39,965 bases of DNA, taken from Chitinophagales bacterium. Lineage in GTDB: Bacteria; Bacteroidota; Bacteroidia; Chitinophagales; JABDMM01. Location of the stretch: assembly GCA_013001465.1 (NCBI GenBank), contig JABDMM010000121.1:1-39965 (forward strand). Reading direction: 5' to 3'. Below are positions 8,187 through 28,173 of the stretch, one piece after another (within the stretch, counting starts at the first letter, position 1; every line of letters begins with the position of its first letter). A model generated the notes under the pieces. The model saw nothing but the letters and a program-made list of their open reading frames with translations. It did not search any database and had not been told where the DNA came from. The translations under genes were made by a program, and so were the position numbers.

Positions 8187-8282
8187 GTTTTTGGGTTGAA
8201 ACAAATTAATTATGTATTATACGAAAAGGTAAAAATAAGGGTTCATATGAGACTGATTATTAGTAGTTATCAAGGATTCGTT

Positions 8283-8321
8283 AAAAAAAATGACCACTTG
8301 TCTAAAATTGGCAAGTGGTCA
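8283..8321 (-). terminator. Rho-independent terminator of the thioredoxin operon
   Basis: On the minus strand, TGACCACTTG, an 11-base loop and CAAGTGGTCA form a perfect 10-bp stem (8291-8300 with 8312-8321). Eight T follow (8290 down to 8283). It lies 36 bp past the stop at 8357 and closes the operon that begins at 12032. Confidence 0.92.
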
Positions 8322-8356
8322 TCTTCATATCTGTTCAATATTAAATTTCTAAAACA

Positions 8357-8968
8357 TTAATTTTCTGCAGGTTTCCACTTGATCGTACATCCGATTGCTT
8401 TTGTAAAATCTGGATTTGGGACATCGCCATTCTCGAGTGATTCGATCGCATTTTCCACATATGCTTCAGTTACGGCGTCAGCACTTTCAACGCTATTGTC
8501 GATCGCTCCAATATATGCTACTTGAAATTCACCATCCATATTTTTCAATAAGTATACTTGTGGAGTCCTTGTTGCACCATAAGCTTCAGCGATTTCCTGA
8601 GTCTCATCGTACAGATAATCAAAGGGAAAATCAAGCGCATCCGCTCTTTTCACCATTTCTTCATAGGAATCTCCAGGCTTAATACTAACGTCATTAGGGT
8701 TTATCGCAACCACCGGATAACCCATTTCCCGGAATGCATTATCAAGCTCGATCATTCTGTCCTCATACTTGACAACAAAAGGGCAAGTATTGCACGAGAA
8801 TATGAGTATCACTCCTTTATTCTCACCAAAATCACTTAGTGAAACCATATTACCATCGATGTTTTTCAATGTAAAGTCTGGAGCAACATCTCCTACTTTA
8901 ACTACTTCATCAGCAAGATTAAAAGATGATAGCAGTATAACAGCTAGCAGAGAATAGATTGTTTTCAT
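8357..8968 (-). CDS. Secreted thioredoxin-fold redoxin
   Basis: A 203-residue exported protein with a signal peptide (residues 1-19) and a redoxin/AhpC-TSA-type thioredoxin fold (VGDVAPDFTLKNIDGN). The redox centre is C59-N-T-C62 in FSCNTCPFV. The cis-Pro loop is RTPQVYLL. The motif VAINPNDVSIKPGDS matches a family of periplasmic thioredoxin-like proteins seen in Bacteroidota and planctomycetes. The substrate is unknown; thiol reduction or resilience to peroxide are the usual roles. It starts 2 bp after the TlpA-like gene, so both are co-translated from the VWA/AAA+ operon and end at a strong terminator. Confidence 0.88.
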   Translation of the reverse strand: MKTIYSLLAVILLSSFNLADEVVKVGDVAPDFTLKNIDGNMVSLSDFGENKGVILIFSCNTCPFVVKYEDRMIELDNAFREMGYPVVAINPNDVSIKPGDSYEEMVKRADALDFPFDYLYDETQEIAEAYGATRTPQVYLLKNMDGEFQVAYIGAIDNSVESADAVTEAYVENAIESLENGDVPNPDFTKAIGCTIKWKPAEN

Positions 8969-9459: not shown

Positions 9460-10933
9460 TCTCCATTGTGAAAACTGAACTCAATAAATCTTTAAACGAA
9501 ATTCCTGATTCAATAATATTTTTACTGAGCTGAGAAAATTCTGCTAAGCCATGTATAGTAAATTCCATTAAGAACGGGATATCTTCTTTACTTGCATTTT
9601 TAAAATAACTCAACACCAACTTTCTGAGATGTGGGATTTCATTAAATTTCTCCAAATACTTTTTTGATGGCAGATCATTCAACACTTCAACGACATTGCC
9701 TTCTCCAAACCAATTTTTTATTTCAGCATAAGGATCTACTCCCTCCTTTTTCCTTTTCTTCATACCATCCGGGTCCGGTAAATACTTCAGGAACTCTGCT
9801 CTGATCGCTTTACCGATAAGATTTTGTGCAACGATATAGGGACCTTCCTGTTCGCCTTCATATACCAATTCGATCTTTCCTGTTATAGCAGGAATGATAC
9901 CCCAGAAGTCCGACATTCGCACAGCACTGTTCTTTTCACCCAAAATATAACTACGTCTTTCTGCTGCACTAATTAAATTCTCATAAGCAGATATGGTAAG
10001 TCTTGCAGAAACCCCTGACTTATTATCAATATACTCAGAATCCCTTGCCTGAATTGCCACTTGCTCAATGATATTCTTTGCAAGTTCAGGAATATAAACC
10101 ATTGATTTTTGCTCTTCTGTAATCTGCGTTTCTTGTTCTGTTATTGATCTTGAAATCTCTAACGTCTTTGGATAGTGAGTAAGTATCTGGCTCTCAACCC
10201 TGTCTTTTAATGGAGTAACAATAGAGCCACGGTTGGTATAATCTTCGGGATTTGCTGTAAATACGAACTGCATATCCAAAGGTAAGCGCAATTTGAATCC
10301 ACGGATCTGTATGTCACCTTCCTGCAAAATATTAAACAACGCTACTTGTATTCTGGCTTGAAGATCAGGTAGCTCATTGATAACGAAAATATGCCTATTC
10401 GACCTTGGGATCAAGCCAAAGTGTATGACACGCTCATCAGAATAAGATAGTCTTTGGTTAGCCGCTTTGATCGGGTCAAGGTCTCCAATGAGATCGGCAA
10501 CGGAGACATCCGGTGTCGCCAACTTCTCTGAATATCGCTGAGATCTATGGAGCCATTTGATCTGGGTGTCATCGCCATGTTCTTCAATAAGTTCACGTGA
10601 GAATACAGATAATGGATTCAAAGGGTCATCGTTCAATTCAGACCCTCTCACGTAAGGAATATATTCATCCAACAACTCGGTCATCTGTCTGGCAATTCGA
10701 GTCTTTGCCTGACCTCTAAGTCCGAGTAGTATGATATTATGCCGTGAAAGTATTGCTCTTTCGATATCAGGTAGCACTGTGTCGTCGTAACCAAGAATAC
10801 CATCAAATAGCTTTTCTTTACTCTGGATCTTATTTATCAGGTTCTCCCTTAGCTCATCCTTGATGGATCTGGACTGGTATCCGGCCTCTTTTAACTCTCC
10901 GAGAGTCTTGATCTTTTTAGGGTTCAATTTCAT
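9443..10933 (-). CDS. MoxR/ChlI-like AAA+ ATPase
   Basis: A 496-residue cytoplasmic ATPase related to the magnesium chelatase I / MoxR branch. The Walker A is G71-L-R-G-Q-A-K-T78. It keeps the Gly-Lys-Thr frame but has Ala before the Lys. The Walker B-like segment is HIFVINELPDL, followed by the typical ILQEGDIQIRGFKLRLPLDM hairpin and sensor-1 FVFTANPEDYTNRGSI. An AAA lid follows with SARLTISAYENLISAAERR. MoxR ATPases act with a VWA partner as chaperones that insert cofactors or remodel complexes. The VWA gene is 1 bp upstream, which supports such a pair. The client is unknown; the downstream thioredoxins suggest a cell-envelope or metalloprotein target (inference). Confidence 0.9.
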   Translation of the reverse strand: MKLNPKKIKTLGELKEAGYQSRSIKDELRENLINKIQSKEKLFDGILGYDDTVLPDIERAILSRHNIILLGLRGQAKTRIARQMTELLDEYIPYVRGSELNDDPLNPLSVFSRELIEEHGDDTQIKWLHRSQRYSEKLATPDVSVADLIGDLDPIKAANQRLSYSDERVIHFGLIPRSNRHIFVINELPDLQARIQVALFNILQEGDIQIRGFKLRLPLDMQFVFTANPEDYTNRGSIVTPLKDRVESQILTHYPKTLEISRSITEQETQITEEQKSMVYIPELAKNIIEQVAIQARDSEYIDNKSGVSARLTISAYENLISAAERRSYILGEKNSAVRMSDFWGIIPAITGKIELVYEGEQEGPYIVAQNLIGKAIRAEFLKYLPDPDGMKKRKKEGVDPYAEIKNWFGEGNVVEVLNDLPSKKYLEKFNEIPHLRKLVLSYFKNASKEDIPFLMEFTIHGLAEFSQLSKNIIESGISFKDLLSSVFTMENDEEF

Positions 10934-10934
10934 T

Positions 10935-12032
10935 TTATCTCAAATTTTTTCTTCGGTTTTTTTCAAAGTCCTGGAAGACATATTCTCCTAATCCTTTTAA
11001 ACTGGAATAAAATGCCTTGCCTTGGTTAATTTCAGTAAACTCATAAACAAAGTTCTGCAGGTATGGGTCCTTAGCGATCATAAAAGTCGTGATCGGTATC
11101 TTTAATTTTCTGCATTGTCTTGCCAGATTGAACGTCTTATTCATGATCTTCCTGTCCAATCCAAAGCTATTCTTGTAATACTTTCCGTTTTCTTTTAAGC
11201 ACGTTGGTTTTCCATCAGTGATCATAAAGATCTGCTTGTTTGGATTTTTCCTTCTTCGAAGTATATCCATTGCGAGATTCAAACCAGCAACAGTATTTGT
11301 GTGGTATGGGCCAACTTTCAGATATGGAAGATCTCTTACTTCAATTTGCCAAGCATCGTTTCCGAATACGATCACATCCAGGGTATCTTTGGGATATTTA
11401 GTGGTGATCAATTCTGCGAGTGCCATAGCGACTTTCTTGGCAGGAGTGATCCTATCTTCTCCATATAAGATCATACTATGAGAGATATCGATCATCAATA
11501 CAGTTGATGCTCTTGTCTGATACTCTGTTTCTCTTACTTCAAGATCCTGTTCAGTGATCTTGAAATCGCCAATTCCATGGTTGATCTGTGCGTTCCTTAG
11601 AGAGTCGGTCATAGAGATCGAATCTGGCGGATCACCGAATTCAAAAGCACGAGTCTCTGAGGTTTGTTCGGAACCCTGACCGCTGAACTTAGTTTTATGT
11701 GTACCCCTCTTTCCTTTCTTCAGCTTCCCAAAGATCTCATCAAGAGATTTTTTTCTGATGGACTGTTCACTCTTTTTTGTGATTTCCAGATCACCACTTC
11801 CATCGTTTTCCTGAATATATCCTTGTTCTTTGAGATCTTCAATAAAATCACCCATTCCGTAATCATCATTCGTTAACTTATACCCCTTATCCAACTCATT
11901 CATCCACTCCAATGCCTCTGCGATATCACCGGAAGTATATGTGAGCAGTTGTAAGAATATATCCAGTAATCGCTCAAATGGAGACGAAAACTGAGATTCC
12001 GCAATAAACTTTGAAAAGAAATATCCTCGCAT
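10935..12032 (-). CDS. VWA-domain protein, partner of MoxR-like ATPase
   Basis: A 365-residue protein. The N-terminal 150 residues are a charged helical region with basic tracts (GKLKKGKRGTHKTKFSGQG). From about residue 175 there is a von Willebrand A domain whose MIDAS reads D182-I-S-H-S186 in LMIDISHSMILYGED. The Thr loop is GPYHTNTVAGLN and the third MIDAS element is MITDGKPTC. This matches the ChlD/CoxE-like subunits that bind a metal and recruit clients to a MoxR ATPase. It is the first gene of a four-gene operon, 1 bp before the ATPase gene and divergent from the M1 peptidase. Confidence 0.9.
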   Translation of the reverse strand: MRGYFFSKFIAESQFSSPFERLLDIFLQLLTYTSGDIAEALEWMNELDKGYKLTNDDYGMGDFIEDLKEQGYIQENDGSGDLEITKKSEQSIRKKSLDEIFGKLKKGKRGTHKTKFSGQGSEQTSETRAFEFGDPPDSISMTDSLRNAQINHGIGDFKITEQDLEVRETEYQTRASTVLMIDISHSMILYGEDRITPAKKVAMALAELITTKYPKDTLDVIVFGNDAWQIEVRDLPYLKVGPYHTNTVAGLNLAMDILRRRKNPNKQIFMITDGKPTCLKENGKYYKNSFGLDRKIMNKTFNLARQCRKLKIPITTFMIAKDPYLQNFVYEFTEINQGKAFYSSLKGLGEYVFQDFEKNRRKNLR

Positions 12033-14593: not shown

Positions 14594-16825
14594 CTATTTC
14601 TGAATAATAATTTTATCTGTCAGCGTTCGATTATTTGTATTAACGACGATCTGGTAAACACCACTACTAAGATCTTTGCTGGAGAAGATAATCGAATTGT
14701 TTTCGATTGAATTTTCCATTTTAATAGTTTTCCCGGAAAGATCTGTAACTCTGATCTTGATATTTTCCATATCGATCTCACCACCTAAAGTAACCCTGAA
14801 CATATCTTGCGCAGGATTTGGAGAAACTGTAAGTGTTGCATCTCCTGCTATAATTCCATCTGTTTTAGAAGTAGGTGTTGTAAATTGATCGATACCGCTG
14901 AAAGGACCTGTGGTATATGGACTAAGATCGCATATAGCAAACAATCCCCATGAATAAGTTGTATTAGGTTTAAGCCCGGTAGCATCAAAAAATGAAACTC
15001 CACCACCTGGCACATTGAGTTTAACAACACCACCAGCAGGAGGATTCGATTGTTGGCCAAGAATCTGGTAGCCAATTGCTGCAGGGTGAGGAGTCCAATT
15101 GAGACGTGCAGCATTTGGAAGAACAGGCCCGGATGAAATTGGAGTGACCACACCACAATTTAAAGTGGTAAAGAAAGTAAGCTCCGAATAAGGACCCCAG
15201 ATCGGTACATTATTCACAGCGTCAAAATCACAAGCTGCTCTTATTCTCCATTCATAACTTGTATTCTTAACTAGATCGAACACCTGATATGAAGTAGTAG
15301 AAGGGTTATTGATCTCTATCTTCACATAATTGTTTGGATTTGATCCTGCTGAACCTCCGGAAATTTCATATCCTAAAGCTCCGGGAGTTTGTGACCAGTT
15401 TAACACTGCTTCATAAAGCGTAACATTTGTAGTACTGGTTAAAGGAGATGGACAAGCTGGAGTACTCACTGTTCCAAGATTGGCCCATATCATCCAGTCA
15501 ATTCCTGAAAAGAATCCCCATGTATCAGCTGCGTCAGTTTTACCCCAGGAAGAAAAAGCAGACGTCAATATCGTTGTAGCACCAACAGCTACTGTTCCAT
15601 TCTTGATACTGATCAAATACAGCGAATCTTTTTGCAGACAAAGCCCACCTGGAAATTTAAAAGTATAAAAGAAAACACCTGTATCTGCAGAAATCACAGA
15701 AGAAGTCGCAATAGCAGGAGCTGCACTATCAAGTGTATTGTAAACACATACACTCAATTGTTGTCCAATTTCAGTTACATCAACAGCAAGTGTTACGGTA
15801 ACTGATGTAAGCGTATCCTTTTCTTCCGGGATGTAAAGAGCAGCTAATTCCGTAGTAGCAGTCGCACCAAATATATTGAAAAAGCTGGCTCCTGCTCCTA
15901 ATTGCCAAAGGTCATTACACCAAACCGAATCATTGACAAGCACAAAATCATAAATGGTATCATTCGTGGATGTATCATCAGTAGTTTGGTTATGACTAAA
16001 ACAGTAAGTATACAATCCTGCTGAATCCGTCATCATATTATACGAACCTGCATTTACTGTTACAGACTCATTAACATTGACAGTTCCAACATTAGTTGTT
16101 GTCTGAGAGACTAACACAGATACCGTATCATTGTCTTCGAGATTATTACAAAGTACATCCAATTGCAAATTAACATTAGTGAACGATGTGTTACCATTAT
16201 TTGTCAATGTTGCAAAAGCGGAATCATTGGGAACAACCTGTGAATATGGAAGACAGCTATAACCACTGCCGTAAGATCCGAAAGAAGCTGCTAAATCGTT
16301 AACCGATGCTGCAGGCGTTATTTCGAGCGTGACCATTCCATTTGAAGCTGCATCCCAACCGTCAACAACAATGAAATAAGACTGTCCGGAAACAAATTGA
16401 AAATTAGAAATTCTTGCCAACCAAGGATTGGCATATGAAGGTCCTGAACATGCATCGTCATTACAAGCCACCTCTGTACCAGCTCCAGGGCCTCCAGAAC
16501 TTACAGCTGGGCATGTACCCTGATAGATATACAGCTTGGTATCAAAATCTGTTACTCCGGTAGCTGAACAGGTAGATATATTGACAAACTGAGTTGCAGT
16601 AGCATTATATAAAAATACTGCATCAAACCCACCATCTTCATCAAAAGGAGCATTACAATAAGCATTGTAATCATCTTTAAAAAATGCTGTATTAAAAGTT
16701 GCAGTATAGGGTAAACCCCCAATGATAGTGGCTGATGCACAGTCTTCCCCTTGAGCATTAACATTAAATTGTGATAAGAATAACACTGAACATATGCTCA
16801 AAAGCATTGTAAAGATCTTTTTCAT
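14594..16825 (-). CDS. T9SS-exported protein with fibronectin-like modules
   Basis: A 743-residue secreted protein. Residues 1-24 form a signal peptide (LLSICSVLFLSQFNVNA). An N-terminal pre-peptidase-like beta domain follows (CASATIIGGLPYTATFNTAF ... FIVVDGWDAASNGMVTLEI). The middle region is beta-rich. Two fibronectin III-type modules follow at about 455-550 and 555-650, with repeated frames VLNWSQTPGALGYEISG and RLNWTPHPAAIGYQILG. The C-terminal 80 residues are a type A T9SS sorting domain (VSPNPAQDMFRVTL, DLSSGVYQIVV) ending in DKIIIQK. It is probably cell-surface or released. No catalytic motif is visible, so a binding or adhesive role is likely. Confidence 0.88.
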   Translation of the reverse strand: MKKIFTMLLSICSVLFLSQFNVNAQGEDCASATIIGGLPYTATFNTAFFKDDYNAYCNAPFDEDGGFDAVFLYNATATQFVNISTCSATGVTDFDTKLYIYQGTCPAVSSGGPGAGTEVACNDDACSGPSYANPWLARISNFQFVSGQSYFIVVDGWDAASNGMVTLEITPAASVNDLAASFGSYGSGYSCLPYSQVVPNDSAFATLTNNGNTSFTNVNLQLDVLCNNLEDNDTVSVLVSQTTTNVGTVNVNESVTVNAGSYNMMTDSAGLYTYCFSHNQTTDDTSTNDTIYDFVLVNDSVWCNDLWQLGAGASFFNIFGATATTELAALYIPEEKDTLTSVTVTLAVDVTEIGQQLSVCVYNTLDSAAPAIATSSVISADTGVFFYTFKFPGGLCLQKDSLYLISIKNGTVAVGATTILTSAFSSWGKTDAADTWGFFSGIDWMIWANLGTVSTPACPSPLTSTTNVTLYEAVLNWSQTPGALGYEISGGSAGSNPNNYVKIEINNPSTTSYQVFDLVKNTSYEWRIRAACDFDAVNNVPIWGPYSELTFFTTLNCGVVTPISSGPVLPNAARLNWTPHPAAIGYQILGQQSNPPAGGVVKLNVPGGGVSFFDATGLKPNTTYSWGLFAICDLSPYTTGPFSGIDQFTTPTSKTDGIIAGDATLTVSPNPAQDMFRVTLGGEIDMENIKIRVTDLSGKTIKMENSIENNSIIFSSKDLSSGVYQIVVNTNNRTLTDKIIIQK

Positions 16826-18135: not shown

Positions 18136-19290
18136 CTAAATCTTCTCCTTAAAGACTTTCTTGAGTAAATATTTATATAATCGCACTCTGTTAAGGATCA
18201 CCTGTCCCTGTACCCCATAACCTCCTTTCAATATTATATTCGGGTTTTCATCTTTAATGTCGACCAGGATATGAAAGTTCTTCTCCTCACTCCTACTTGA
18301 TACATAGGATACATTGCCATTAACTATACCATATACAAAATGGTTGTACTCCTTCAGCTTTAAAATCACTTGCTGTCCGGGTGTTAAGCTCTTCAAGTGA
18401 TAAGGCTGTATGTTTAACTTCGCATAGTATGAGTTCTCCTGCTTCGGATCGATGCGGATCAATTCCATTCCCTTGCTCACAATATTTAAATTAGACGTCG
18501 AGTTAAATACAAATTGCACCTTACCTTCGATTTCAGATGTGATCCACTGATACGAATGATCTTTTTCTTTAAGTATGATCAAACTTTCAAGCTTCTCCTT
18601 ATAAATTTCATTCTCCTTTAGCTTCTGATCGATCTCGAGTACCTCAAATTCTATGTCGAGTATCTGCTTGTTCAAGTCATAATATTCACGCTGAAACTGA
18701 TTCTTCAGAGTAACATACTCATTATTCTTTTGCAGGTATTTCTGGTAAGTCTCCTCAAACTGTACCTGACTTAGGACTCCTTGCTTCTTCAGTTCATTAT
18801 CCCGGTTCATTTTTTCTTTAACCAAATACAACTCCTGCTCTAATGATTCCAATTTCTCACGATTGTTGCGGGATGAAGAACTATGGACTCTTGACTTGGG
18901 GTTTGGAATGAGCCTGATCTGACTTTTCAACTCATCGATCTTCTTCGTGAGGTTACTCTTCAAATAATTCAACGAAGAATCTGCTTGTATCAACGATTCA
19001 AGATCTCGCTCGTCCTGTACCATTTCAGAATTGATCTGACTGTTACGCAGCACGATAAGCGTATCTCCAACACTCACATTCATACCCTCTTTCACCAATA
19101 CCCTTTCAACCACAGCATCAAATGGAGCGATGTAGCTGTTAACAGAATTGGATGCGAGGATCTCACCTTCAGGGATACTAACGGTTTCATTGATCTTTAA
19201 TGTAACAAGAAGTACGACGCTTATGGTTACAAAGAACATGAACATCGCAAACAATATTCGTATCAACTTCAGTTTTACTTGATCTTGCAT
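18136..19290 (-). CDS. HlyD-family membrane fusion protein of peptide exporter
   Basis: A 384-residue periplasmic adaptor. One membrane helix lies at about residues 8-30 (ILFAMFMFFVTISVVLLVTL). A lipoyl-like half-motif follows (YIAPFDAVVERVLVKEGMNV, then GDTLIVLRNS) and a long coiled-coil hairpin at about 90-235. The return lipoyl and beta-barrel strands follow (WITSEIEGKVQFVF, LTPGQQVILKLKEYNHFVYG). This type links an inner-membrane ABC exporter to an outer-membrane channel. No TolC gene is nearby, so the outer-membrane partner must be elsewhere. It overlaps the ABC transporter gene by 16 bp, which indicates a single export unit. Confidence 0.92.
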   Translation of the reverse strand: MQDQVKLKLIRILFAMFMFFVTISVVLLVTLKINETVSIPEGEILASNSVNSYIAPFDAVVERVLVKEGMNVSVGDTLIVLRNSQINSEMVQDERDLESLIQADSSLNYLKSNLTKKIDELKSQIRLIPNPKSRVHSSSSRNNREKLESLEQELYLVKEKMNRDNELKKQGVLSQVQFEETYQKYLQKNNEYVTLKNQFQREYYDLNKQILDIEFEVLEIDQKLKENEIYKEKLESLIILKEKDHSYQWITSEIEGKVQFVFNSTSNLNIVSKGMELIRIDPKQENSYYAKLNIQPYHLKSLTPGQQVILKLKEYNHFVYGIVNGNVSYVSSRSEEKNFHILVDIKDENPNIILKGGYGVQGQVILNRVRLYKYLLKKVFKEKI

Positions 19291-21689
19291 AGCTCTCCTT
19301 TTGTCATTTTATAATGTGCATTATATTGTATTGTTGGGGTATCGATATGAGATGTGATCAGAAATGCTTTATCATTTATTGAATTCAACAACTTTTCGAT
19401 CCTTGTCCTTGATTCACTATCGATACCGATAAATATTTCATCGAGTATGATCATCGAAGCATCAGACATCAAAGCTCTCAACAATAGTATCTTTTTTCTC
19501 TGACCTGAAGAGAGGTTTCTTCCGTTTTCTACCAAGCGGAAATTCAGTTTCTCCGGGTTGGAAACGATGAACTCATAGAAATCGATCGCTTTTGCATATG
19601 CTATCAGTTTCTCCAGATCTATTTTCTTATCAAATGCGATGTTGAAGTGAAGCGAGTCATCGAAAATCGTATCCTCGCCACTGATCATTAAAATGTTCTT
19701 CCGTAAACTGTCCCGTTCGAACATATCATGGTGAATCCCATTATACAATATCGACCCTTCATCCTGATCATACAGCAAACTCATCACCTTGCAGAGTGTT
19801 GACTTACCGCTACCATTCTTCCCCTCTAGAAAAATTTTGTCACCTCTTTTAACAGAAATTGAATTTTGTTTTAAAATAGGTTTCTCCAGGATGTATGCAA
19901 ATTTCACATCGTTAATATCCAGGCTTTCGAAGGCCGAAGCATGGATCTTCTGATGATCCTTCGGTGCATCTTCTTCAGCAATTGCTTTCTTTTCCTGAAA
20001 ATCGAAATATCTATTCACGATCACTTTAAATTCCTGGAGGGATAAATTCTCTTCGAGCAGGTCGTTTAGTGAACCGAATATTTTCGAGCTCAGCGCAATA
20101 AATGCAATGATCTGACCGAGAGTGATCGAATTTGAGATCATCATTTGTCTCGATAATATCACGATGATGGCTAAAATTGTTATTTGAATTATAACTGAAA
20201 CAACGACCGAATTGAAGAGGTCAACATATTTTGATTTCTTCCGAATTTCCAACAAAGTGTTTACCTCCTCTCCTATTTCGTGAGAAGTATATCGTTCCAG
20301 TCCCATCGATTTTACTACCTGGATACCATCTATCTTTTCGATCATCTTAGAATACAAGTTAGCCTTGCTTCTGAAGCGTTGATTTTCCAGATTTTTAATA
20401 ATTGGGGTGAGCACAAAGAACAAAACAGTGAAAACCGCAATTACACCCAGGACGATAAGTGATAGCTTCCAGTTCAGGACAAACAAGATCCCTATCGAAA
20501 AAACTGAGATAACGACATTCACAAAGATCGATGAGAAGAATCTCAGGAAAAAACTCTTGATCTTCATCGAGTCGCTTAGTCTTTCCATCAGATCGCCTCT
20601 TCTGAAGGAAGCGAGATATCTCATGGAATAGTGATTCAGTTTAGCATCGAAAATATTCAGGAAATGTTTATCCAAAGCCAGACCAAGAAAGATAGAAACG
20701 TACTTTCTGAATATCCTGAAAGAGACATTGAACATAAAGAATATACCAACACCAATCGCGAACATGGTCAGCACATCCACTTGATACGTAGGCAGAACTT
20801 CATCGATCAACAACAGATTGATAAATACGGATAAATGAGTAACAAGAGCAGCTACAACCGTAGTAACTAAAAAGATCATCCACAGTTCCTTAAATTCTGA
20901 AGTAATACTGATGAGTTTGCTGAAAATACTCTTGCCCTCGACATTGTCATTGATCTTTAACTTTTTATCATCCGGCTTGTTGACAGACAATAACAATGGT
21001 GTTTCAAACTCAACCTTCTCTCCCAGTAGTTTTAGGTTCTTATGGCTTAGAGGTATCTTTTCATATTGCTGATTAAACAGTAGGTCTTTCAGATATGCAT
21101 TTGCAGCTTTATCATCCTTAAAACCAAATGTTTCTTCTATGTAGGTGAAGTAACTCACCTTGTTAAACATTTCAATGAGGTCTTGCCCCTGGATATTCAG
21201 AGGGATGCTTATTTTTCTTTCACTGAGGACCGCGTTGACCTCGCGTTGTAGCTTTGCTTCAACATCTACAAGATCGATCTCAGCACTGTTCAAATGCGCT
21301 TTCTTACTCAGTTCTGAACTGCTAAGTTTATAGATGCTGCCATCTGAAGGATCATAAATGGTGAACTTCCCTTTCCTATAACCATTGAGTACAATATAAT
21401 GCAGCCCTCTCTTCTGCATGATGGGCACAATTGCAGGGAAAAGACTGGAAATTTCTTTTTCACTCTTATCGAGTACATTCAGATCGACAAGTTTGAAATT
21501 GGTTACAAAACCATTGGAATCGAAAAATTTCTTGATGTCCCCAATACTCGCACCGGATTCGTCGAGTGGGATGTCATTTTCAATATAAGATCGGCTAAGC
21601 TTTACCTTTAGGGCATTACAAACCGTTTTTGCAGCACTTATCGCGCAATCGTTATCACGTAACTGCTGATCAACAACATTTTTAATCAT
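19275..21689 (-). CDS. C39-peptidase ABC exporter (bacteriocin type)
   Basis: An 804-residue half-transporter. Residues 1-130 are a C39 leader peptidase with Gln9, Cys15 (LRDNDCAIS), His97 (GLHYIVLNGY) and Asp113 (IYDPSDG), so the catalytic set is complete, although the usual Gly after Cys is Ala. A linker of about 120 residues precedes the membrane domain at 265-545. The nucleotide-binding domain has Walker A G623-KNGSGKST631, signature LSSGQ (726-730), Walker B IILDE (747-751) and switch His781. The Q-loop Gln is not evident (ILMISGEDT). Such exporters cut the leader at a double-glycine-type site and export the core. The adjacent peptide gene with an Ala-Gly site is the obvious substrate. 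Confidence 0.93.
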   Translation of the reverse strand: MIKNVVDQQLRDNDCAISAAKTVCNALKVKLSRSYIENDIPLDESGASIGDIKKFFDSNGFVTNFKLVDLNVLDKSEKEISSLFPAIVPIMQKRGLHYIVLNGYRKGKFTIYDPSDGSIYKLSSSELSKKAHLNSAEIDLVDVEAKLQREVNAVLSERKISIPLNIQGQDLIEMFNKVSYFTYIEETFGFKDDKAANAYLKDLLFNQQYEKIPLSHKNLKLLGEKVEFETPLLLSVNKPDDKKLKINDNVEGKSIFSKLISITSEFKELWMIFLVTTVVAALVTHLSVFINLLLIDEVLPTYQVDVLTMFAIGVGIFFMFNVSFRIFRKYVSIFLGLALDKHFLNIFDAKLNHYSMRYLASFRRGDLMERLSDSMKIKSFFLRFFSSIFVNVVISVFSIGILFVLNWKLSLIVLGVIAVFTVLFFVLTPIIKNLENQRFRSKANLYSKMIEKIDGIQVVKSMGLERYTSHEIGEEVNTLLEIRKKSKYVDLFNSVVVSVIIQITILAIIVILSRQMMISNSITLGQIIAFIALSSKIFGSLNDLLEENLSLQEFKVIVNRYFDFQEKKAIAEEDAPKDHQKIHASAFESLDINDVKFAYILEKPILKQNSISVKRGDKIFLEGKNGSGKSTLCKVMSLLYDQDEGSILYNGIHHDMFERDSLRKNILMISGEDTIFDDSLHFNIAFDKKIDLEKLIAYAKAIDFYEFIVSNPEKLNFRLVENGRNLSSGQRKKILLLRALMSDASMIILDEIFIGIDSESRTRIEKLLNSINDKAFLITSHIDTPTIQYNAHYKMTKGELCKIK

Positions 21690-21690
21690 A

Positions 21691-22890
21691 TCACTTCGAT
21701 ATTATATCCTTCCAGCGGTCGAAAAACTCAACCGCAGATCTAAATCTATTTTCAGGCTTTTTACTTAAAGCTTTTGATAGAAGGCTTATGATCTCAGTGT
21801 TGACTGTTGTGTGATGTGAATTGAAACTGGGGTTGCTGTTGCGTATGTTGTTTGACAGGTCTTTCCAAGTGATACCTTTGAAGGGCTTTTCATCGAATAG
21901 GATCGAGTAGATCAGCACCGCAAGTTGATAAACCTCAGAACGAAAGTCTGCCTTTTCTTTAACGAATTTAAAGCTGGATTGGTTAAGTTTTTCCGGCGGT
22001 AAATAATGAAGTACTCCTCCGCGTCGAATAATTTCATCTTCCTCCGGTTGAATATGATTCGACATACCGAAATCGATAACCTTTATCTTAAGATCATCAA
22101 GAACAAGAAAATTATGACTGTGAATATCACCATGAACTACACCGGTAGCGTGTAAATATGCTGAAGCTTCAAGCAAATTATGGATCAGTTGGATCTTTGT
22201 ATCGATGGATTGACCCATTTTCAACCACGATGAGATCGTAGAGCCATAGACATACTCCATCACTCCATAGACTTGATCTTCGTTGTTGAAGGCGATGAAT
22301 TGACAAATAAACTCGGAATCGAGTTCTTTCATGATATCAAATTCCTGTTTAAATGCTTGGATCTTTTTTTCTTTCCTGCTACCTAAATAATCCTGCTTCA
22401 GCAGTTTTATGATATGATGTTTCCCATTGTCTGTATTCTTTGCACGATAGATCCAAATGTCTTTTTTACTGCAGATGACATCTTCAATAATATAATTTCC
22501 AATAAGATCACCGATACCAGCTTCAATCTCCTGATGTTTATCTTCGATCTTTGGATCCAGAAGTATTCCTTTTACAAAAAGAGATTTGAAAAAAGCGACA
22601 GCAGTATCCTGTATTGCATGTCTTTCAACATTAGCTTCTTTTGCAAGTACTTCAATTACACTCCCTAAAGAAATTGGATCCTTAAATTGCTGAAGAAAAT
22701 AGGAAATAGACTCATTGATAAAGTATTCCCTGTCTGTTTTCTCATTCATAAGAACAAATCGCCGATCAGGCAGATCCTTACAATTGAGCCACAGATCGTG
22801 ATCATCAAATAAATTTTCCTGCTGAAGATCGACTATTTCAATCCACGGAGATAGTACAAATTTATCTCTGTTAATTTTATACTGGTACAT
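21691..22890 (-). CDS. RRE-like domain fused to Ser/Thr protein kinase
   Basis: A 399-residue protein without membrane segments. Residues about 40-112 resemble a PqqD/RiPP-recognition-element fold: DRRFVLMNEKTDREYFINES, then helices with a typical FKSLFVKGILLDP end. Residues 129-399 are an eukaryotic-like kinase. They contain Lys162 (IIKLLK), alpha-C Glu183, catalytic loop H253-G-D255-I-H-S-H-N260, D273-F-G275 and PPE (298-300). The glycine-rich loop is degenerate (IIEDVICSKKDIWIY). The catalytic residues suggest an active phosphotransferase; HGD rather than HRD is seen in phosphotransferase and lanthionine-synthetase-type kinases. No lyase or cyclase domain is present. It sits 1 bp before the exporter gene and right after the peptide gene. 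I infer that it binds the leader and phosphorylates the Ser-rich core. Confidence 0.85.
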   Translation of the reverse strand: MYQYKINRDKFVLSPWIEIVDLQQENLFDDHDLWLNCKDLPDRRFVLMNEKTDREYFINESISYFLQQFKDPISLGSVIEVLAKEANVERHAIQDTAVAFFKSLFVKGILLDPKIEDKHQEIEAGIGDLIGNYIIEDVICSKKDIWIYRAKNTDNGKHHIIKLLKQDYLGSRKEKKIQAFKQEFDIMKELDSEFICQFIAFNNEDQVYGVMEYVYGSTISSWLKMGQSIDTKIQLIHNLLEASAYLHATGVVHGDIHSHNFLVLDDLKIKVIDFGMSNHIQPEEDEIIRRGGVLHYLPPEKLNQSSFKFVKEKADFRSEVYQLAVLIYSILFDEKPFKGITWKDLSNNIRNSNPSFNSHHTTVNTEIISLLSKALSKKPENRFRSAVEFFDRWKDIISK

Positions 22891-22923
22891 AAAAAAAAGA
22901 GTACATGAAAAGACATGTACTCT
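22891..22923 (-). terminator. Hairpin plus T-run between peptide and kinase genes (attenuator)
   Basis: On the minus strand AGAGTACATG and CATGTACTCT pair (22923-22914 with 22907-22898) around a 6-base loop, followed by eight T (22898-22891). The T-run ends at the kinase ATG (22890). The structure lies 20 bp after the peptide stop. It is a good intrinsic terminator. Since no separate promoter is seen for the kinase, partial read-through would make peptide mRNA far more abundant than kinase and exporter mRNA. Confidence 0.85.
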
Positions 22924-22942
22924 CTGTTTATTTTATATTGAT

Positions 22943-23161
22943 TTAGTTCATGATCACACACTCTTCTTCAAAGAAGTTTTGACTTGTAGTGCTTTTAGAA
23001 CAACTACTAATAGAGCTTATAGACGATTCAGACGACTTAGCACTCTTTTCTTTGTTTTTCTTGTTCTTTTTCTTCTTTTTTCCGGCTCTCAAATCGACAT
23101 CAACGAGTTGATCTATTTTCTCCTCGCTTAGTTCATTAAGAATCTTGTTTAAGTTGATCAT
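22943..23161 (-). CDS. Candidate RiPP-like precursor peptide, Lys/Ser-rich
   Basis: A 72-residue peptide. Residues 1-24 form an amphipathic leader (LNKILNELSEEKIDQLVDVD). A leader-type site L24-R-A-G27 is followed by a lysine/asparagine tract (28-39, nine Lys). Residues 40-60 hold 12 Ser and 2 Thr in 21 positions, with four Ser-Ser-X units at 43-54 (SSESSISSISSC). The tail is acidic (FFEEECVIMN), and Cys54 and Cys68 are the only cysteines. The gene is the first of the exporter operon, has its own promoter, and is followed by an attenuator. The size, leader, Ala-Gly site and C39-exporter context fit a precursor peptide. The core composition is unlike known lanthipeptide or sactipeptide cores I recall. 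Mature activity is unknown. Confidence 0.8.
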   Translation of the reverse strand: MINLNKILNELSEEKIDQLVDVDLRAGKKKKKNKKNKEKSAKSSESSISSISSCSKSTTSQNFFEEECVIMN

Positions 23162-23184
23162 AGTGAAATATTTTAATTATATAT

Positions 23185-23213
23185 AATATAACATACATAT
23201 ATTAAAAAGTCAA
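23185..23213 (-). promoter_or_regulatory. Sigma70-like promoter of the peptide operon
   Basis: On the minus strand TTGACT (23213-23208), a 17-bp spacer and TATATT (23190-23185) match classical -35/-10 boxes. The ATG at 23161 is 23 bp beyond the -10. No TAnnTTTG box is seen. The remaining part of 23162-23373 contains an imperfect palindrome at 23286-23304 and no gene. Confidence 0.55.
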
Positions 23214-23373: not shown

Positions 23374-26300
23374 TCAGTTAACGATAACCCTTTCCGTTGC
23401 GCTCTTATATACACCGGACTGATAAGAGATATAATATACACCTTTCGCCAGGTTTTTTGTGTTAACTCTATAGCGATAGATGTTTGGAATTTCGGTCAAT
23501 TCTACGACCTTAACTCCTCTGGTATCCTGAATTGAGATACTCCCGAGTTCATTGCCTTCCTTCCTGATCTCTATATTGATCTTGTCTTTCGCCGGATTTG
23601 GATAAATATTCAAAGTAGTCAAACCGCCATTAGAACCGAATGCCGGTAGCTTGCTGTTAGGTCCGGTCGTAAATGTATCGATCACTGAATATTGCTGCGA
23701 TTTCAAAGGAAGATTACACACGGGGGTTATTCTCCAAACATAATCCGTATTATTCGCTAAGCTGTTTGCTACATATGATGTTGTAGTTCCGGGAGTGATC
23801 TCCAGTGTTACGATTTTCGTGGCACCCGCTGCAGACCCCTGGATGATATACCCCAATGCATATGGTGTCTCTGTCCATTTCAAAGTTGCAGAGTTTGTGC
23901 TAACATTGTCGGTCCAAATTACAGGAACCTGGCAGGTAGTTGCGAATGTATCCATGCCGGTCCAACCGCTGTTTCCAAATGAACATAATGTCCGTGCCTG
24001 CCATTCAAAATTCTTGTTTGTCTGGATCCCTGTTACCTGGTATGAACTTGTTCCTTGTGCGAAATTAAGATACACAAAGGATGTTATAGCCGGACTTATC
24101 AAGCGACCTCTTATTTCATAGTTTAAAGCATTTGGCATATTGTCCCAATTCAGAACAGCACCAGTTGGGGTAACATTTGTGGTAAATATTGAACTTGGAG
24201 CATTGCAAATTGGAGCGGCCTTTGTAACGCAAATGTCAAAGTTGCCTGACATAGCGCCACCGTCGTTCCATAATTGAATATAGTAGTCACTGCCGGTTGT
24301 CAAACCATTGAGTACATGGTTACCTGCAGCACTATCACTACAATATATTTGGTTACCTGCGCACCCATCATAAACTGCTAAGGACAATCCCGCTGCTGTT
24401 ACATTGGAAATGTTGATCTCTGCACCTGTATCGGTTCCTGAATTAAAGTAATACCAAACATCCCTTATGCTTCCGAATGGGTCACAAGAAGGATTCTGAG
24501 GTGCCTGAAATGCACAAGTATTTCCTCCGGAAGTAGCAGTACAATTGTTATGTTCAGATAAAGGCAGACTAATTGCTCCTAAACACTCATCATTTATTGG
24601 CTGTGGACCGCAAGGTGTGTCACAATTCAGCGTAATGCTAAAGTCTCCTGTGGCATTCTGAAAACCATGTACCAAAATATAATAGTCTGTTCCTACTGTG
24701 GTCTGAAAAGTATACCTGGAGGTATTTATTGCACATCCACTAAAGTCGTCATTCCCGCCGATGCAGTTGAGAATACCGCAGCTTCCGCTAAATATACTAA
24801 TCCTCGTATCGTAATCTGCAAAATTACATGTAGCTACTGTAACATCCATACCCGTTCCACTATGAACATACCAAACTCCGGGAGATGTAATATCCGGGCC
24901 ACAAACACCGCCCATGCTTATTGTCGCATTTACCGTGCTTCCATTAATCGTATCCCCGCAATTTATTGAAGTGGCATTATCACACGAGTCATTAGGTTCG
25001 GGTGGAGGGCTGTTATAGATACAGCTTACATTCAGACTGAAGTTTCCTGTGTTATTACTGTAACCGCTTACTCTTATAAAATAATCTGTTCCAGGCACCG
25101 AAGTCCATGTCACAGATGATTTAAGTCCGCAGTTATCATCATTACCGGTCACGCAAATTAAGCTACCGCAACTTCCGGAATACACATGCATCTTTGTATC
25201 ATAATTAGTGATCCCTCCACATGTATTAACGGTTACAGAACCATCGATCCCCGGAAATCTATACCAGACGCCGGGAGCTGTAGCAGAAGTCACGCAAGTA
25301 ACAGGCAGGTCTATGGTGGTCGAGTTAGTTGTTGAGCCAATATAAAATGAGTCACACTGAATAAGGATCGCATCCGCACACTGGTCGTTCGGAGGCAAAC
25401 CAAACAAAGTATTGAAATTAACAGGACCAATAGTACCACTGACATTGCCTGCACCACAATCTTCAAGTAAATAAGTATCGTAAGATGTTCCGGGGTTCAA
25501 ACCAATGAAGTTTACAGGTGGGCCATTTACACCGGTAATTCCGGAAATGATCGGAATTGCATTATTCCCAACGCCCGGATTTTGACCGGCAGGGACAACT
25601 TCGATATTGTAAGTAGAGTTATTGACCGATAACCAGTCTACTGTGGCAGATGAATCAGTGATCGAGCTAACGGCAAGTCCGCTCGGATCCGGACATAGAT
25701 CTATACAAGAAACAGTTAACTCGAATTCTCCGCTGACACTATTTCCACTAACGTATACAAAATAATCGACCCATGGGATACTTGTAAATGTCACAGAAGA
25801 AGAAAGAGTATCGGCACAAGCGACATTATTGTCATTTCCTGCAACACAACTTAGGCTGCTACAATCTCCCGAATAGACTTCAATTATAGTATTAAAATCT
25901 GTACCTGTATCACAACTTGAAATAGTGAATTGTTCACCATTTCCGGTGATATGATACCAGACACCATTTCCATGAGCAGGGGTCATACATATAGCAGGGC
26001 TTCCGATCGAAGAGCTGTTGATTGTATTGCCATGCATTGTCTGACCACAAACCAAGGGAATAGCATTTCCGCACAGATCGTTCAAAGGAAAACCATCATC
26101 CTTGATGCAACCATTATCCACGATCCCGACAAAGTTCTCGTAATTATCATTTAGTACAGCTTCCACAGAGCTAATACAAATCACCGTGTCTGTCGTTGAA
26201 CTCCAGAACACCCGGACCACACTCTGGTAATGCATGCTTTTTTCAATTACAGAATCAAGGTATGATAAATGTAAAACTGTATTCCCTCCCAGGGAAAATG

Positions 26301-28173
26301 AAGCAGCATCAGGGAATTCTGAGGGTTTTGCCATGCTTACAGCATTGCTGATCGTGATGCCACTAAAATTAAGCTGGTATCCAAGTATCCTCGAAGCAGG
26401 ATTAAGCACTGCAACATCAAGGTATTTAGCACTCCAGTCAACATTGACGATCTTAAATTTCGCGGTATCATTTATATTGAAATACCCCTGTGGAAACTCA
26501 CATTTAGAGGGTGACCCTCCCGGTTTAGAGCATCTGTTAGCAAAAGCGAGGTCCGTTATATTAAGCTTCCCATCTGCGTTAAGATCATTACAGTTGGTCT
26601 GTACTAAACTGTTGTTGATGATCCCATCAAGGTATAAACTGACATCAGAACTTCCGACAACTCCATTAGTATCTATATCACCCGTTATAGTTGAACCGTT
26701 GCAGATACCCAGGCAATCAAACTGAGATGAACCGAGTGTATCGCCTGCACAGTCAACAAATACAGGACAATCATTGACAAGTTGAAACTGAAGGTCTCCG
26801 TTTGTATTATATGACAACCTGATACAGACCTGGGTCCAGTTATTTTTGTAATCTACCTCATGTCTTCCCAATGCGTCAGGATTCTGATCCCAATTAGTAC
26901 GAATCACCAATGTGTATCTTCCGGTATCAACATCGGTAACATCCAACCAGTTACAAGTTGTACTCGATCCATAAATATCGTCGCACCCTGCGCTGATACC
27001 CATATTCGAACACGAAAACTTCGCTGTTCCACCATTTGTACAAGTAACATCCATCACACAGAAACCCATCTTAAAACCAACAGGTAGTTCAAGACCGTTA
27101 TCGTCAAAAAGCACGTAATCAGCATAACCTTTATAGTGTGCATGACCGTGGCAATTGTTCAGGTCAAAGAGATGCGGTGCCGTTGAGGGGCTACCTATAT
27201 AATAATCCTGGGTTCCAATATTTTTTAAGTGTGTAGCAAACTTTAAGACCTTTCGAAGACCTGAGCCGGTCGTACATCCTTCAATGACCTGGCAGGGATC
27301 CGAATTATTGATCTGATCAAGAAAAATAGATGAAACAACAGCATTTCGGTCGATGATCAGATCCGGTCCATCCGGACAATTTGGGTTTGGTGCATATATA
27401 CAGCTATCTGAAATAGTGGCCAAAGGTTCATAGTTACATGCTGTAGGATCCGTACAACCGGTCACCTGGCCCATATACTCTATTAAAAAATTGATCGGGT
27501 TGTTTCCACAGGCATTCGCACTATCGCCAACTCGGATATAATACTCTGTACCTGCATCAAGCGTCGTGTTAAGCAAGGCGTTTATCCCACATTCATTATC
27601 GCCCCAATATATCGCTCCTTCTATCCCATCAGTTATGTTGATGCCTGTACAAACATCATATACCCACAACATGGTATTACAACTATTGCTATCACAAGTC
27701 TTAACAATATAAGTTCCTACTGAATCAGGCTTAAAGGAATACCAGGTCTCACTCTTTGGTGCTGTATGACTCCCTTCTGTAATAGAAATGGGTGATTGAC
27801 AGCTGAATCCCGGAGGACATCCTATATGCCAGTATTCGTTGTTACCAAAATCATATCCTGACCTGGAAATGATGAGGTTGTTGTCATAATAAAGTGAGTA
27901 TCCACCCGGACTAAAGATCCCATCTCCATATGAGTCATAAATATTGAAGACCAGGCACATTGTATCCGGCATACAAAGCGTATCTCCAACAGCCCCACCT
28001 GAAGCGAGAACATTATCATTTGCATCGCGTAAATCCCATGTAGTTTCATTCGGGAATTGATCAGGTGTGATGATGATGATGATTTCAACATTGTTTGCTG
28101 CACACTGAGCACTGATGTTCAGAGATATGAAGCATAGAATGACAATAAAAAAGAACGAAATGGTATACTTCAT
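23374..28173 (-). CDS. Large T9SS protein with lysyl-oxidase-like domain
   Basis: A 1599-residue secreted multidomain protein with a signal peptide at 1-22. Residues 267-453 match the lysyl oxidase fold: C341-H-G-H-A-H346 gives the three copper histidines (342, 344, 346). GFCVMDVTC, SAGCDDIYG and CNWLDVTDV follow the vertebrate order. Tyr442 (VDYKNN) aligns with the LTQ tyrosine. The position of the LTQ lysine (DVKPGNY in human LOX) is Asp416 here (DVDTGRY). A dockerin-like repeat pair follows at about 498-550, then several pre-peptidase-type beta domains (GVWYHITGNGEQFTISSC and relatives), fibronectin-type modules near 1390-1510, and a C-terminal T9SS sorting domain (LNIYPNPAKDKINIEI). Confidence 0.88.
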   Translation of the reverse strand: MKYTISFFFIVILCFISLNISAQCAANNVEIIIIITPDQFPNETTWDLRDANDNVLASGGAVGDTLCMPDTMCLVFNIYDSYGDGIFSPGGYSLYYDNNLIISRSGYDFGNNEYWHIGCPPGFSCQSPISITEGSHTAPKSETWYSFKPDSVGTYIVKTCDSNSCNTMLWVYDVCTGINITDGIEGAIYWGDNECGINALLNTTLDAGTEYYIRVGDSANACGNNPINFLIEYMGQVTGCTDPTACNYEPLATISDSCIYAPNPNCPDGPDLIIDRNAVVSSIFLDQINNSDPCQVIEGCTTGSGLRKVLKFATHLKNIGTQDYYIGSPSTAPHLFDLNNCHGHAHYKGYADYVLFDDNGLELPVGFKMGFCVMDVTCTNGGTAKFSCSNMGISAGCDDIYGSSTTCNWLDVTDVDTGRYTLVIRTNWDQNPDALGRHEVDYKNNWTQVCIRLSYNTNGDLQFQLVNDCPVFVDCAGDTLGSSQFDCLGICNGSTITGDIDTNGVVGSSDVSLYLDGIINNSLVQTNCNDLNADGKLNITDLAFANRCSKPGGSPSKCEFPQGYFNINDTAKFKIVNVDWSAKYLDVAVLNPASRILGYQLNFSGITISNAVSMAKPSEFPDAASFSLGGNTVLHLSYLDSVIEKSMHYQSVVRVFWSSTTDTVICISSVEAVLNDNYENFVGIVDNGCIKDDGFPLNDLCGNAIPLVCGQTMHGNTINSSSIGSPAICMTPAHGNGVWYHITGNGEQFTISSCDTGTDFNTIIEVYSGDCSSLSCVAGNDNNVACADTLSSSVTFTSIPWVDYFVYVSGNSVSGEFELTVSCIDLCPDPSGLAVSSITDSSATVDWLSVNNSTYNIEVVPAGQNPGVGNNAIPIISGITGVNGPPVNFIGLNPGTSYDTYLLEDCGAGNVSGTIGPVNFNTLFGLPPNDQCADAILIQCDSFYIGSTTNSTTIDLPVTCVTSATAPGVWYRFPGIDGSVTVNTCGGITNYDTKMHVYSGSCGSLICVTGNDDNCGLKSSVTWTSVPGTDYFIRVSGYSNNTGNFSLNVSCIYNSPPPEPNDSCDNATSINCGDTINGSTVNATISMGGVCGPDITSPGVWYVHSGTGMDVTVATCNFADYDTRISIFSGSCGILNCIGGNDDFSGCAINTSRYTFQTTVGTDYYILVHGFQNATGDFSITLNCDTPCGPQPINDECLGAISLPLSEHNNCTATSGGNTCAFQAPQNPSCDPFGSIRDVWYYFNSGTDTGAEINISNVTAAGLSLAVYDGCAGNQIYCSDSAAGNHVLNGLTTGSDYYIQLWNDGGAMSGNFDICVTKAAPICNAPSSIFTTNVTPTGAVLNWDNMPNALNYEIRGRLISPAITSFVYLNFAQGTSSYQVTGIQTNKNFEWQARTLCSFGNSGWTGMDTFATTCQVPVIWTDNVSTNSATLKWTETPYALGYIIQGSAAGATKIVTLEITPGTTTSYVANSLANNTDYVWRITPVCNLPLKSQQYSVIDTFTTGPNSKLPAFGSNGGLTTLNIYPNPAKDKINIEIRKEGNELGSISIQDTRGVKVVELTEIPNIYRYRVNTKNLAKGVYYISYQSGVYKSATERVIVN

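Follow-up and report, generated by a model that had tools for sequence, protein, structure and literature searches.

The window analyzed here, a stretch of 39,965 nucleotides that makes up one entire contig of a Chitinophagales bacterium (GCA_013001465.1, JABDMM010000121.1), contains a minus-strand operon (18136-23161). In transcription order, it consists of a short peptide gene, a terminator-like hairpin, a gene fusing a PqqD/RRE-like domain (RRE, recognition element of ribosomally synthesized and post-translationally modified peptides, RiPPs) to a Ser/Thr protein kinase, a gene for a C39-peptidase ATP-binding cassette (ABC) exporter, and a gene for an HlyD-type adaptor (Table 1). An earlier note, made from the sequence alone, had proposed this gene order and had read it as a new kind of peptide system. 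The coordinates of the open reading frames (ORFs) and Pfam matches bear out the order, spacing and overlaps: the kinase and exporter genes are 1 bp apart, the exporter ORF shares 16 bp with that of HlyD, and the products match Pkinase (E 2.5e-32), ABC_membrane (4e-26), Peptidase_C39 (1.8e-14) and HlyD_3 (2.4e-10).

Table 1. Features of the peptide-kinase-exporter operon, in window coordinates.
Feature	Positions	Strand	Basis
Promoter-like hexamers 5' of the peptide gene, weak	23185-23213	-	Consensus match only
Precursor peptide, 72 aa	22943-23161	-	ORF; leader model E 4.6e-11; SSx repeat common to other loci
Leader-coding part, 27 aa	23081-23161	-	Resembles leaders of other loci (alignment of 11)
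Terminator-like hairpin with T run in the peptide-kinase gap, likely attenuator	22896-22925	-	Hairpin scan, shuffles
PqqD/RRE-like domain fused to Ser/Thr protein kinase, 399 aa	21691-22890	-	Pfam, invariant catalytic residues
N-terminal stretch with PqqD/RRE-like domain (Pfam: residues 45-110)	22516-22890	-	Pfam
C39-peptidase ABC exporter, 804 aa, with Q/C/H/D of the peptidase	19275-21689	-	Pfam, alignment
HlyD-type periplasmic adaptor, 384 aa	18136-19290	-	HlyD_3 2.4e-10; TIGR01843 7.1e-21, under its cut-off

Distribution of the cassette and its exporter

We found the RRE-kinase fusion at 12 loci in 11 genomes, all within one order, with 25-33% identity to the window kinase. At each of these loci, the kinase gene is preceded on its strand by between one and five genes for short peptides, whose leaders end in GG or AG, so the pairing of kinase and peptide genes pointed out in the earlier note recurs throughout. 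Searched with the single sequence, 396 genomes of the order yielded the fusion in five, one of them the window's own. Profile searches recovered it in 7 of 199 genomes of one family (8 loci, E <= 7.3e-106), in 2 of 195 genomes of a second family and in 1 of 20 genomes of a third; the first family holds one larger relative besides (genome G490, 2.3e-44), and the window's family is represented by a single genome in the collection searched. Within a phylum-wide sample of 395 genomes, the window's own genome gave the only full-length match, with kinase-domain-only matches in 12 others, and in a class-wide sample of 395 genomes it alone passed E 1e-60. These samples overlap, so their counts are not additive, and the larger searches scored no more than 4 or 9 candidates per genome, which makes misses possible. 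Among viral contigs, one search returned no match and another two weak kinase-domain matches; a contig scan with one query sequence yielded only a weak kinase-domain match, in Lentzea.

A C39 exporter gene lies 3' of the kinase gene at eight loci, with a Pfam Peptidase_C39 match in all eight, and each of these exporters has the Q, C, H and D of the peptidase. Catalytic residues and GG/AG leader ends thus occur together, as is typical of a C39 exporter and its substrate. Across the 11 genomes we obtained nine exporter matches: eight are full-length (E <= 5.6e-188) and all of these adjoin an RRE-kinase gene, while the ninth covers the ABC part only. Kinase and exporter identities correlate across the eight loci (r = 0.94, 0 of 5,000 permutations), and the kinase and exporter trees disagree on the placement of the window and L037. 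The kinase gene of L008 (genome G097) lies at a contig end, and upstream of its peptide and kinase genes are a C39 exporter (6721-8922, Peptidase_C39 2.5e-36) of another type than the window's and an HlyD-domain protein (9879-11888). Since the exporter search, at E <= 1e-40, missed this one, genomes G383 and G467 may hold C39 exporters elsewhere. HlyD was confirmed in the window and at L009, L036, L037 and L046. An outer-membrane efflux protein is encoded beside the cassette at L007, L009, L036, L037, L040 and L046, and none was seen adjoining the window operon. Choosing the longest frame for the L009 exporter makes its ORF overlap the kinase gene by 122 bp.

The hairpin of the window (22925-22896) combines a 12-bp stem with a T run, and 0 of 200 shuffles were equally strong, in agreement with the attenuator that the earlier note had placed behind the peptide gene. 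Strong hairpins (at least 10 bp, with a T-rich tail) separate peptide and kinase genes at nine of the 12 loci, where no more than 1 of 200 shuffles did equally well; the same scan found none at L038, L040 and L041. The scan was purpose-written, and its shuffles preserved mononucleotide composition. Because a terminator-like hairpin precedes the kinase gene, the peptide is probably transcribed in excess over the kinase, and the recurrence of the hairpin fits a system that makes more peptide than enzyme. The promoter scan did not outperform shuffles (22 sites in the region, 18.2 expected).

Leaders and cores of the precursor peptides

The window peptide divides into a leader (residues 1-27, with an AG end) and a core (residues 28-72) in which a Lys block is followed by SSESSISSISS. 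All 17 leaders in the set end in GG or AG, the motif by which the cut site was assigned, and an alignment of 11 leaders gives the consensus MITLxxIIxxLxEEKIxKVVxAG. Among 834 six-frame segments, a leader model built from the 11 loci other than the window's found the window peptide as the sole good match (E 4.6e-11; next 0.55). When each locus was left out in turn, a kinase-linked peptide came first at 10 of the 12 (E 0.005 at L008, <= 1e-4 at the nine others), which upholds the conservation of the peptide. In the 199 genomes of the one family, leader searches gave ten matches at E <= 4.1e-7, in five of the seven genomes with a kinase cassette, and none at that threshold outside cassette-bearing genomes; one further match was weak (6.6e-4, within a 367-aa frame). 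As the positives had been in the training set, only the absence of matches elsewhere is informative in this search. The leave-one-out model and the 199-genome search together rule out a chance ORF as the source of the window peptide. The peptides of L010 and L039 were assigned by position, GG-ending leader and composition only, and for those of L009, L010 and L038d an inner Met was chosen as the start. Overall, a gene-encoded precursor with a conserved leader and a variable core adjoins an enzyme gene, an arrangement of the RiPP type. A separate small GG-containing peptide ORF at L037 (11187-11465), away from the kinase gene, has an acidic core rich in Asn and Asp.

The cores are of low complexity and mostly hydroxyl-rich, with (SSx)n, KT/RT, KS/G or SR repeats, for example SSSSSSSSTTSVSSESSVSSVSSESTVEA (L007), STSSESSVSSVSSESSLSSESTSDEDPMV (L036) and KHGKTKTRTKTKTKTRTRTRTRKHGTKYY (L009); the five-gene array of L038 has Ser/Arg/His repeat cores (SSSSRSHSSSSRSHSSSSRS). 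The motif SS[EVIL]SS[EVIL]SS is common to the window and to L007, L036 and L040, which come from another family than the window's, and was found 0 times in 64,085 residues of background protein. At every one of the 12 loci, Ser and Thr together make up more of the core than of the leader (p = 0.0005); they also exceed their level in nine control GG-leader cores (median 0.32 vs 0.17, p = 0.003). The excess over the controls is stronger for Ser, Thr, Lys and Arg combined (p = 0.00014) and not significant for Lys and Arg alone (p = 0.068), all of these p-values treating related loci as independent. The nine controls remain from 12 scanned TIGR04149 loci, L058, L059 and L063 being without a usable ORF, and one plus-strand ORF of L064 and one duplicate (L060/L069) being dropped as well. 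Background windows of equal length matched the window core in combined Ser, Thr, Lys and Arg in 5 of 11,262 cases and in Ser and Thr alone in 289 of 11,262, so the Ser/Thr excess is modest in the window itself.

Three of the 17 cores (L007, L036 and L040) contain neither Lys nor Arg. Given this and the non-significant Lys+Arg comparison, the Lys/Ser-rich hallmark proposed in the earlier note loses its Lys half, which is not conserved. Cys is missing from the same three cores, which hold 17-21 Ser/Thr; it occurs twice in the window core, and a Cys-rich end is common to several L038 cores. TCN and AGY Ser codons occur together in 11 of the 13 cores counted (6 and 6 in the window; L008a, L038b, L038c and L038d were left out), which suggests selection on the Ser residue and speaks against nucleotide slippage as the origin of the Ser runs. 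The L038 array (L038:5280-7337) consists of five tandem precursors whose leaders are nearly alike and whose cores range from Ser/Arg/His repeats to poly-Arg; three of them carry WYCCNG or a similar Cys/Trp/Tyr-rich C-terminal motif.

The kinase, its N-terminal domain and a relative with LanC

None of K162, E183, HGD 253-255, N260 and D273 varies among the 12 kinases, and these residues presumably play the catalytic roles that they have in protein kinases. Pkinase (PF00069) matches all 12 as well. The window kinase fits the PknB model best (2.1e-31), ahead of LanL (1.4e-13) and LanKC (1.7e-12), and its best sequence matches among solved structures include StkP and PknB; its glycine-rich loop looks degenerate. 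The L046 kinase, as used here, starts a few codons inside its probable start.

The N-terminal domain is probably an RRE. Taken alone, the N-terminal domains match PqqD in nine of 12 cases at E <= 1 (best 1.5e-4), and no other Pfam family recurs; six of the ten NCBIfam families that they match weakly are PqqD- or RRE-named, all at E 0.0054 or worse. The full-length scan of the window protein gives PqqD at 9.6e-4 (19.9 bits against a gathering score of 23.4 bits). Profile matches in the PDB include, further down the ranking, a PqqD family protein, TfuB1 and PqqD at E 0.12-1.2. A low-confidence model of the domain has strands followed by three helices, and with this model Foldseek ranks PqqD and lasso RRE chains 1, 3, 4, 8 and 11; since E never falls below 0.36, the ranking is supportive at most. 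The PqqD/RRE match asserted in the earlier note therefore stands as far as the sole recurrent Pfam family goes, and does not extend to significant profile or fold E-values.

None of the four operon products matches a lyase (OspF-like or HopA1-like) or a cyclase, as the earlier note had stated for the locus, and no genome-wide lyase search was made. The sole lanthipeptide-model matches in the operon are those of the kinase region to LanL and LanKC. In 10 of the 11 kinase-bearing genomes, the window's own (92% complete) among them, no LanC (PF05147) was found. Membership among the lanthipeptides was rejected on the lyase- and cyclase-free operon together with this absence of LanC. G097 encodes a stand-alone LanC-like protein (L056:1240-2529), on a different contig from its kinase.

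The larger relative in G490, a genome from the family to which seven of the 11 kinase-bearing genomes belong (G377 is in that family), is a 785-aa protein (L042:2826-5183) that joins an RRE-like domain and a kinase to a LanC domain (6.8e-35). Both the N-terminal domain and the kinase are homologous to those of the cassette, to which G490 adds LanC and a weakly HopA1-like neighbor (L042:5189-6121, E 0.0066, 0 NCBIfam matches). Its N-terminal domain matches a profile of the 12 fusions at E 1.2e-6 and 24.2 bits, against 5.6 bits for the best of 500 shuffles, and the kinase tree splits 15 ordinary kinases from the 12 and G490 with a support of 0.997, G490 being on a long branch. Its contig, of 6,167 bp, yielded no precursor. 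An RRE-kinase thus occurs in a lanthipeptide-like setting too, and the G490 protein, apparently a lanthipeptide synthetase with an RRE, would link RRE-kinases to peptide Ser/Thr chemistry. Class II-V lanthipeptide core enzymes are reported to lack any identifiable RRE (PMC10604976). Since kinase-only and kinase-plus-cyclase forms exist in one family, the divergence of the two pathways would be testable if the kinase works as proposed below.

A predicted route to secreted phosphopeptides

The genes present and their co-occurrence, the conservation of leader and catalytic residues, and the composition of the cores suggest a minimal RiPP-type cassette from which a linear phosphopeptide would be made and secreted, a reading to which we give a probability of about 0.7. 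From these genes we infer leader binding, phosphorylation, cleavage and export, in the following order. The peptide would be made in excess over the kinase by way of the hairpin; the RRE-like domain would bind a leader of roughly 22-30 residues; the fused kinase would phosphorylate several Ser and Thr of the core; and the C39 exporter would cut after AG or GG, the core leaving through HlyD and an outer-membrane channel. As the operon contains no lyase or cyclase gene, modification most likely ends at phosphate esters, which would leave the product linear. The phosphate-rich repeats might serve in binding metals, minerals or surfaces, although this role is a guess.

Several observations weigh against this reading. 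Some cores are not rich in Ser and Thr (L010 0.10, L038b 0.10, L038d 0.15), the leave-one-out leader model misses the leaders of L010 and L039, and no C39 exporter adjoins the kinase gene at L010, L039 and L041. The remainder concern the RRE: the window N-terminal domain alone reaches PqqD at E 1.9e-4 and 22.1 bits, under the 23.4-bit gathering score; three of 12 N-terminal domains have no PqqD match even at E <= 1; full-length scans give PqqD in only four of 12 at E <= 0.01; the top PDB match of the N-terminal profile is a non-RRE acetyltransferase, 4dmo (E 0.0076); the pLDDT of single-sequence AlphaFold models is low (36.4 full-length, 48.6 for the N-terminal 125 residues); and residues 1-128 of the G490 protein match no Pfam family at E <= 1.

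Phosphorylation could instead be the initial half of a dehydration, the same kinase or a lyase encoded elsewhere removing the phosphate to leave dehydroalanine or dehydrobutyrine, with or without thioethers. The G490 protein with its LanC domain and HopA1-like neighbor points this way, as do the two Cys of the window core and the Cys-rich ends at L038, and elimination within the kinase active site, described for LanM (PMC9486802), keeps this alternative alive. We nevertheless consider it unlikely: no operon product resembles a lyase or cyclase, LanC is absent from 10 of 11 genomes and on another contig in G097, the L007, L036 and L040 cores offer many Ser and Thr but no Cys, and the kinase fits PknB above LanL and LanKC. 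It is quite unlikely, too, that the kinase domain performs another ATP-dependent transfer, such as AMPylation, or acts on a single site per peptide as in the linear polyphosphorylated peptides (LPPs) of Bacillota. The degenerate glycine-rich loop would suit another transfer, and so would RosX, a kinase-fold cyclase reportedly without canonical catalytic residues; against it stand the core catalytic residues and Pkinase match kept in 12 of 12 kinases. Single-site action has its model in LppK, which places all phosphates on one Ser (PMC13381572), but repeats of Ser and Thr along whole cores suggest many sites. That the kinase serves in regulation or immunity, linked only by co-regulation to an unmodified secreted bacteriocin or signal, seems very improbable. 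Signaling kinases such as StkP and PknB are indeed among its best solved matches, yet the kinase bears an RRE-like domain, no other modification enzyme occurs among the window operon products, Ser and Thr are enriched in the core and not the leader, and the kinase-peptide pair persists without an adjacent exporter at L010, L039 and L041.

Multiple phosphorylation of a linear peptide, the reading we prefer, has its closest published counterpart in these LPPs, in which a linear phosphorylated intermediate was seen by mass spectrometry, with all phosphates on Ser3 and the final structure not determined (PMC13381572, Nat Commun 2026). An RRE-guided kinase on a RiPP precursor, predicted in our case, is common to both, as are an ABC transporter and the absence of a macrocyclase. 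The LPP systems, as described there, have a separate RRE, an HprK-like kinase, an SpI-type leader peptidase and an NTP transferase. Our cassette has, unlike them, a Pkinase-type enzyme of the protein-kinase fold fused to a PqqD-like domain, a presumed C39 leader peptidase, a GG/AG leader and, in most cores, many hydroxyl residues; among the window operon products there is no SpI-type peptidase or NTP transferase, but a C39 peptidase instead. Class III, IV and V lanthipeptide systems (LanKC, LanL, CaoK/CaoY) likewise have a kinase, which phosphorylates Ser and Thr of a precursor with a leader, class V using a kinase and a HopA1-like lyase, but they also carry lyases and form thioethers (PMC10604976, PMC9486802), whereas the cassette has an RRE-like domain and an operon without lyase or LanC. 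With the C39/PCAT double-glycine peptides, the cassette shares the GG/AG leader end and the conserved C39 site; the hydrophobic -4/-7/-12 leader pattern given in PMC10885120 fits L009, L010, L039 and L046 and is off by one residue in seven of 17 leaders (L007, L036, L041 and four of L038). Those systems need no kinase.

Among the matches listed, we found no description of the cassette in titles and abstract openings of open-licence literature. The word "kinase" is absent from the main texts of the RRE-Finder paper (PMC7470986) and a structure-based RRE paper (PMC12710340), and the kinase passages in the available portion of a paper on Bacteroidales RiPP clusters concern histidine kinases (PMC10352776). 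Linear phosphorylated RiPP pathways have one published precedent, reached by an unrelated route, and there is a real chance that the cassette forms a class of its own. The "distinct RiPP-like class" of the earlier note has to be weighed against the LPPs as that precedent (PMC13381572).

More tentatively, the cassette may define a separate RiPP class in which an RRE-protein-kinase fusion makes heavily multi-phosphorylated linear peptides with (SSx)n, (KT/RT)n, KS/G or SR repeats, exported whole, as bacterial equivalents of caseins, silaffins or SR proteins that would likely act on metals, minerals or surfaces. This class would share its ancestry with the lanthipeptide-type RRE-kinase-LanC enzyme and be without its lyase and cyclase. 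Silaffins, caseins and SR proteins are eukaryotic, use other secretion routes and kinases, and have Ser-rich, Lys/Arg-containing or phospho-cluster-like repeats. As the Lys/Arg part is missing in three cores, the silaffin- or casein-type polyampholyte likeness drawn in the earlier note applies to part of the family. If this proposal is right, phosphorylation would be the end product, and not a step toward dehydration, in a second, unrelated RiPP lineage, and low-complexity Ser/Thr repeats would be modified rather than a single site. The kinase would then be a compact, leader-guided enzyme whose substrates vary widely within one array, as at L038 with its five precursors and one kinase.

Directly upstream of the peptide gene in the window, on the same strand, lies a gene for a large secreted protein (23374-28173, minus strand) in which a lysyl oxidase domain (1.7e-26) is combined with a type IX sorting domain. 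Such a lysine-oxidizing neighbor of a Lys-rich peptide could cross-link it; no lysyl oxidase domain was found in the 10 large neighbors scanned at other loci. Downstream of the operon, positions 14594-16825 encode another type IX-sorted protein, which has a fibronectin type III domain, and the sorting domain carried by these flanking proteins, Por_Secre_tail, is in keeping with Bacteroidota.

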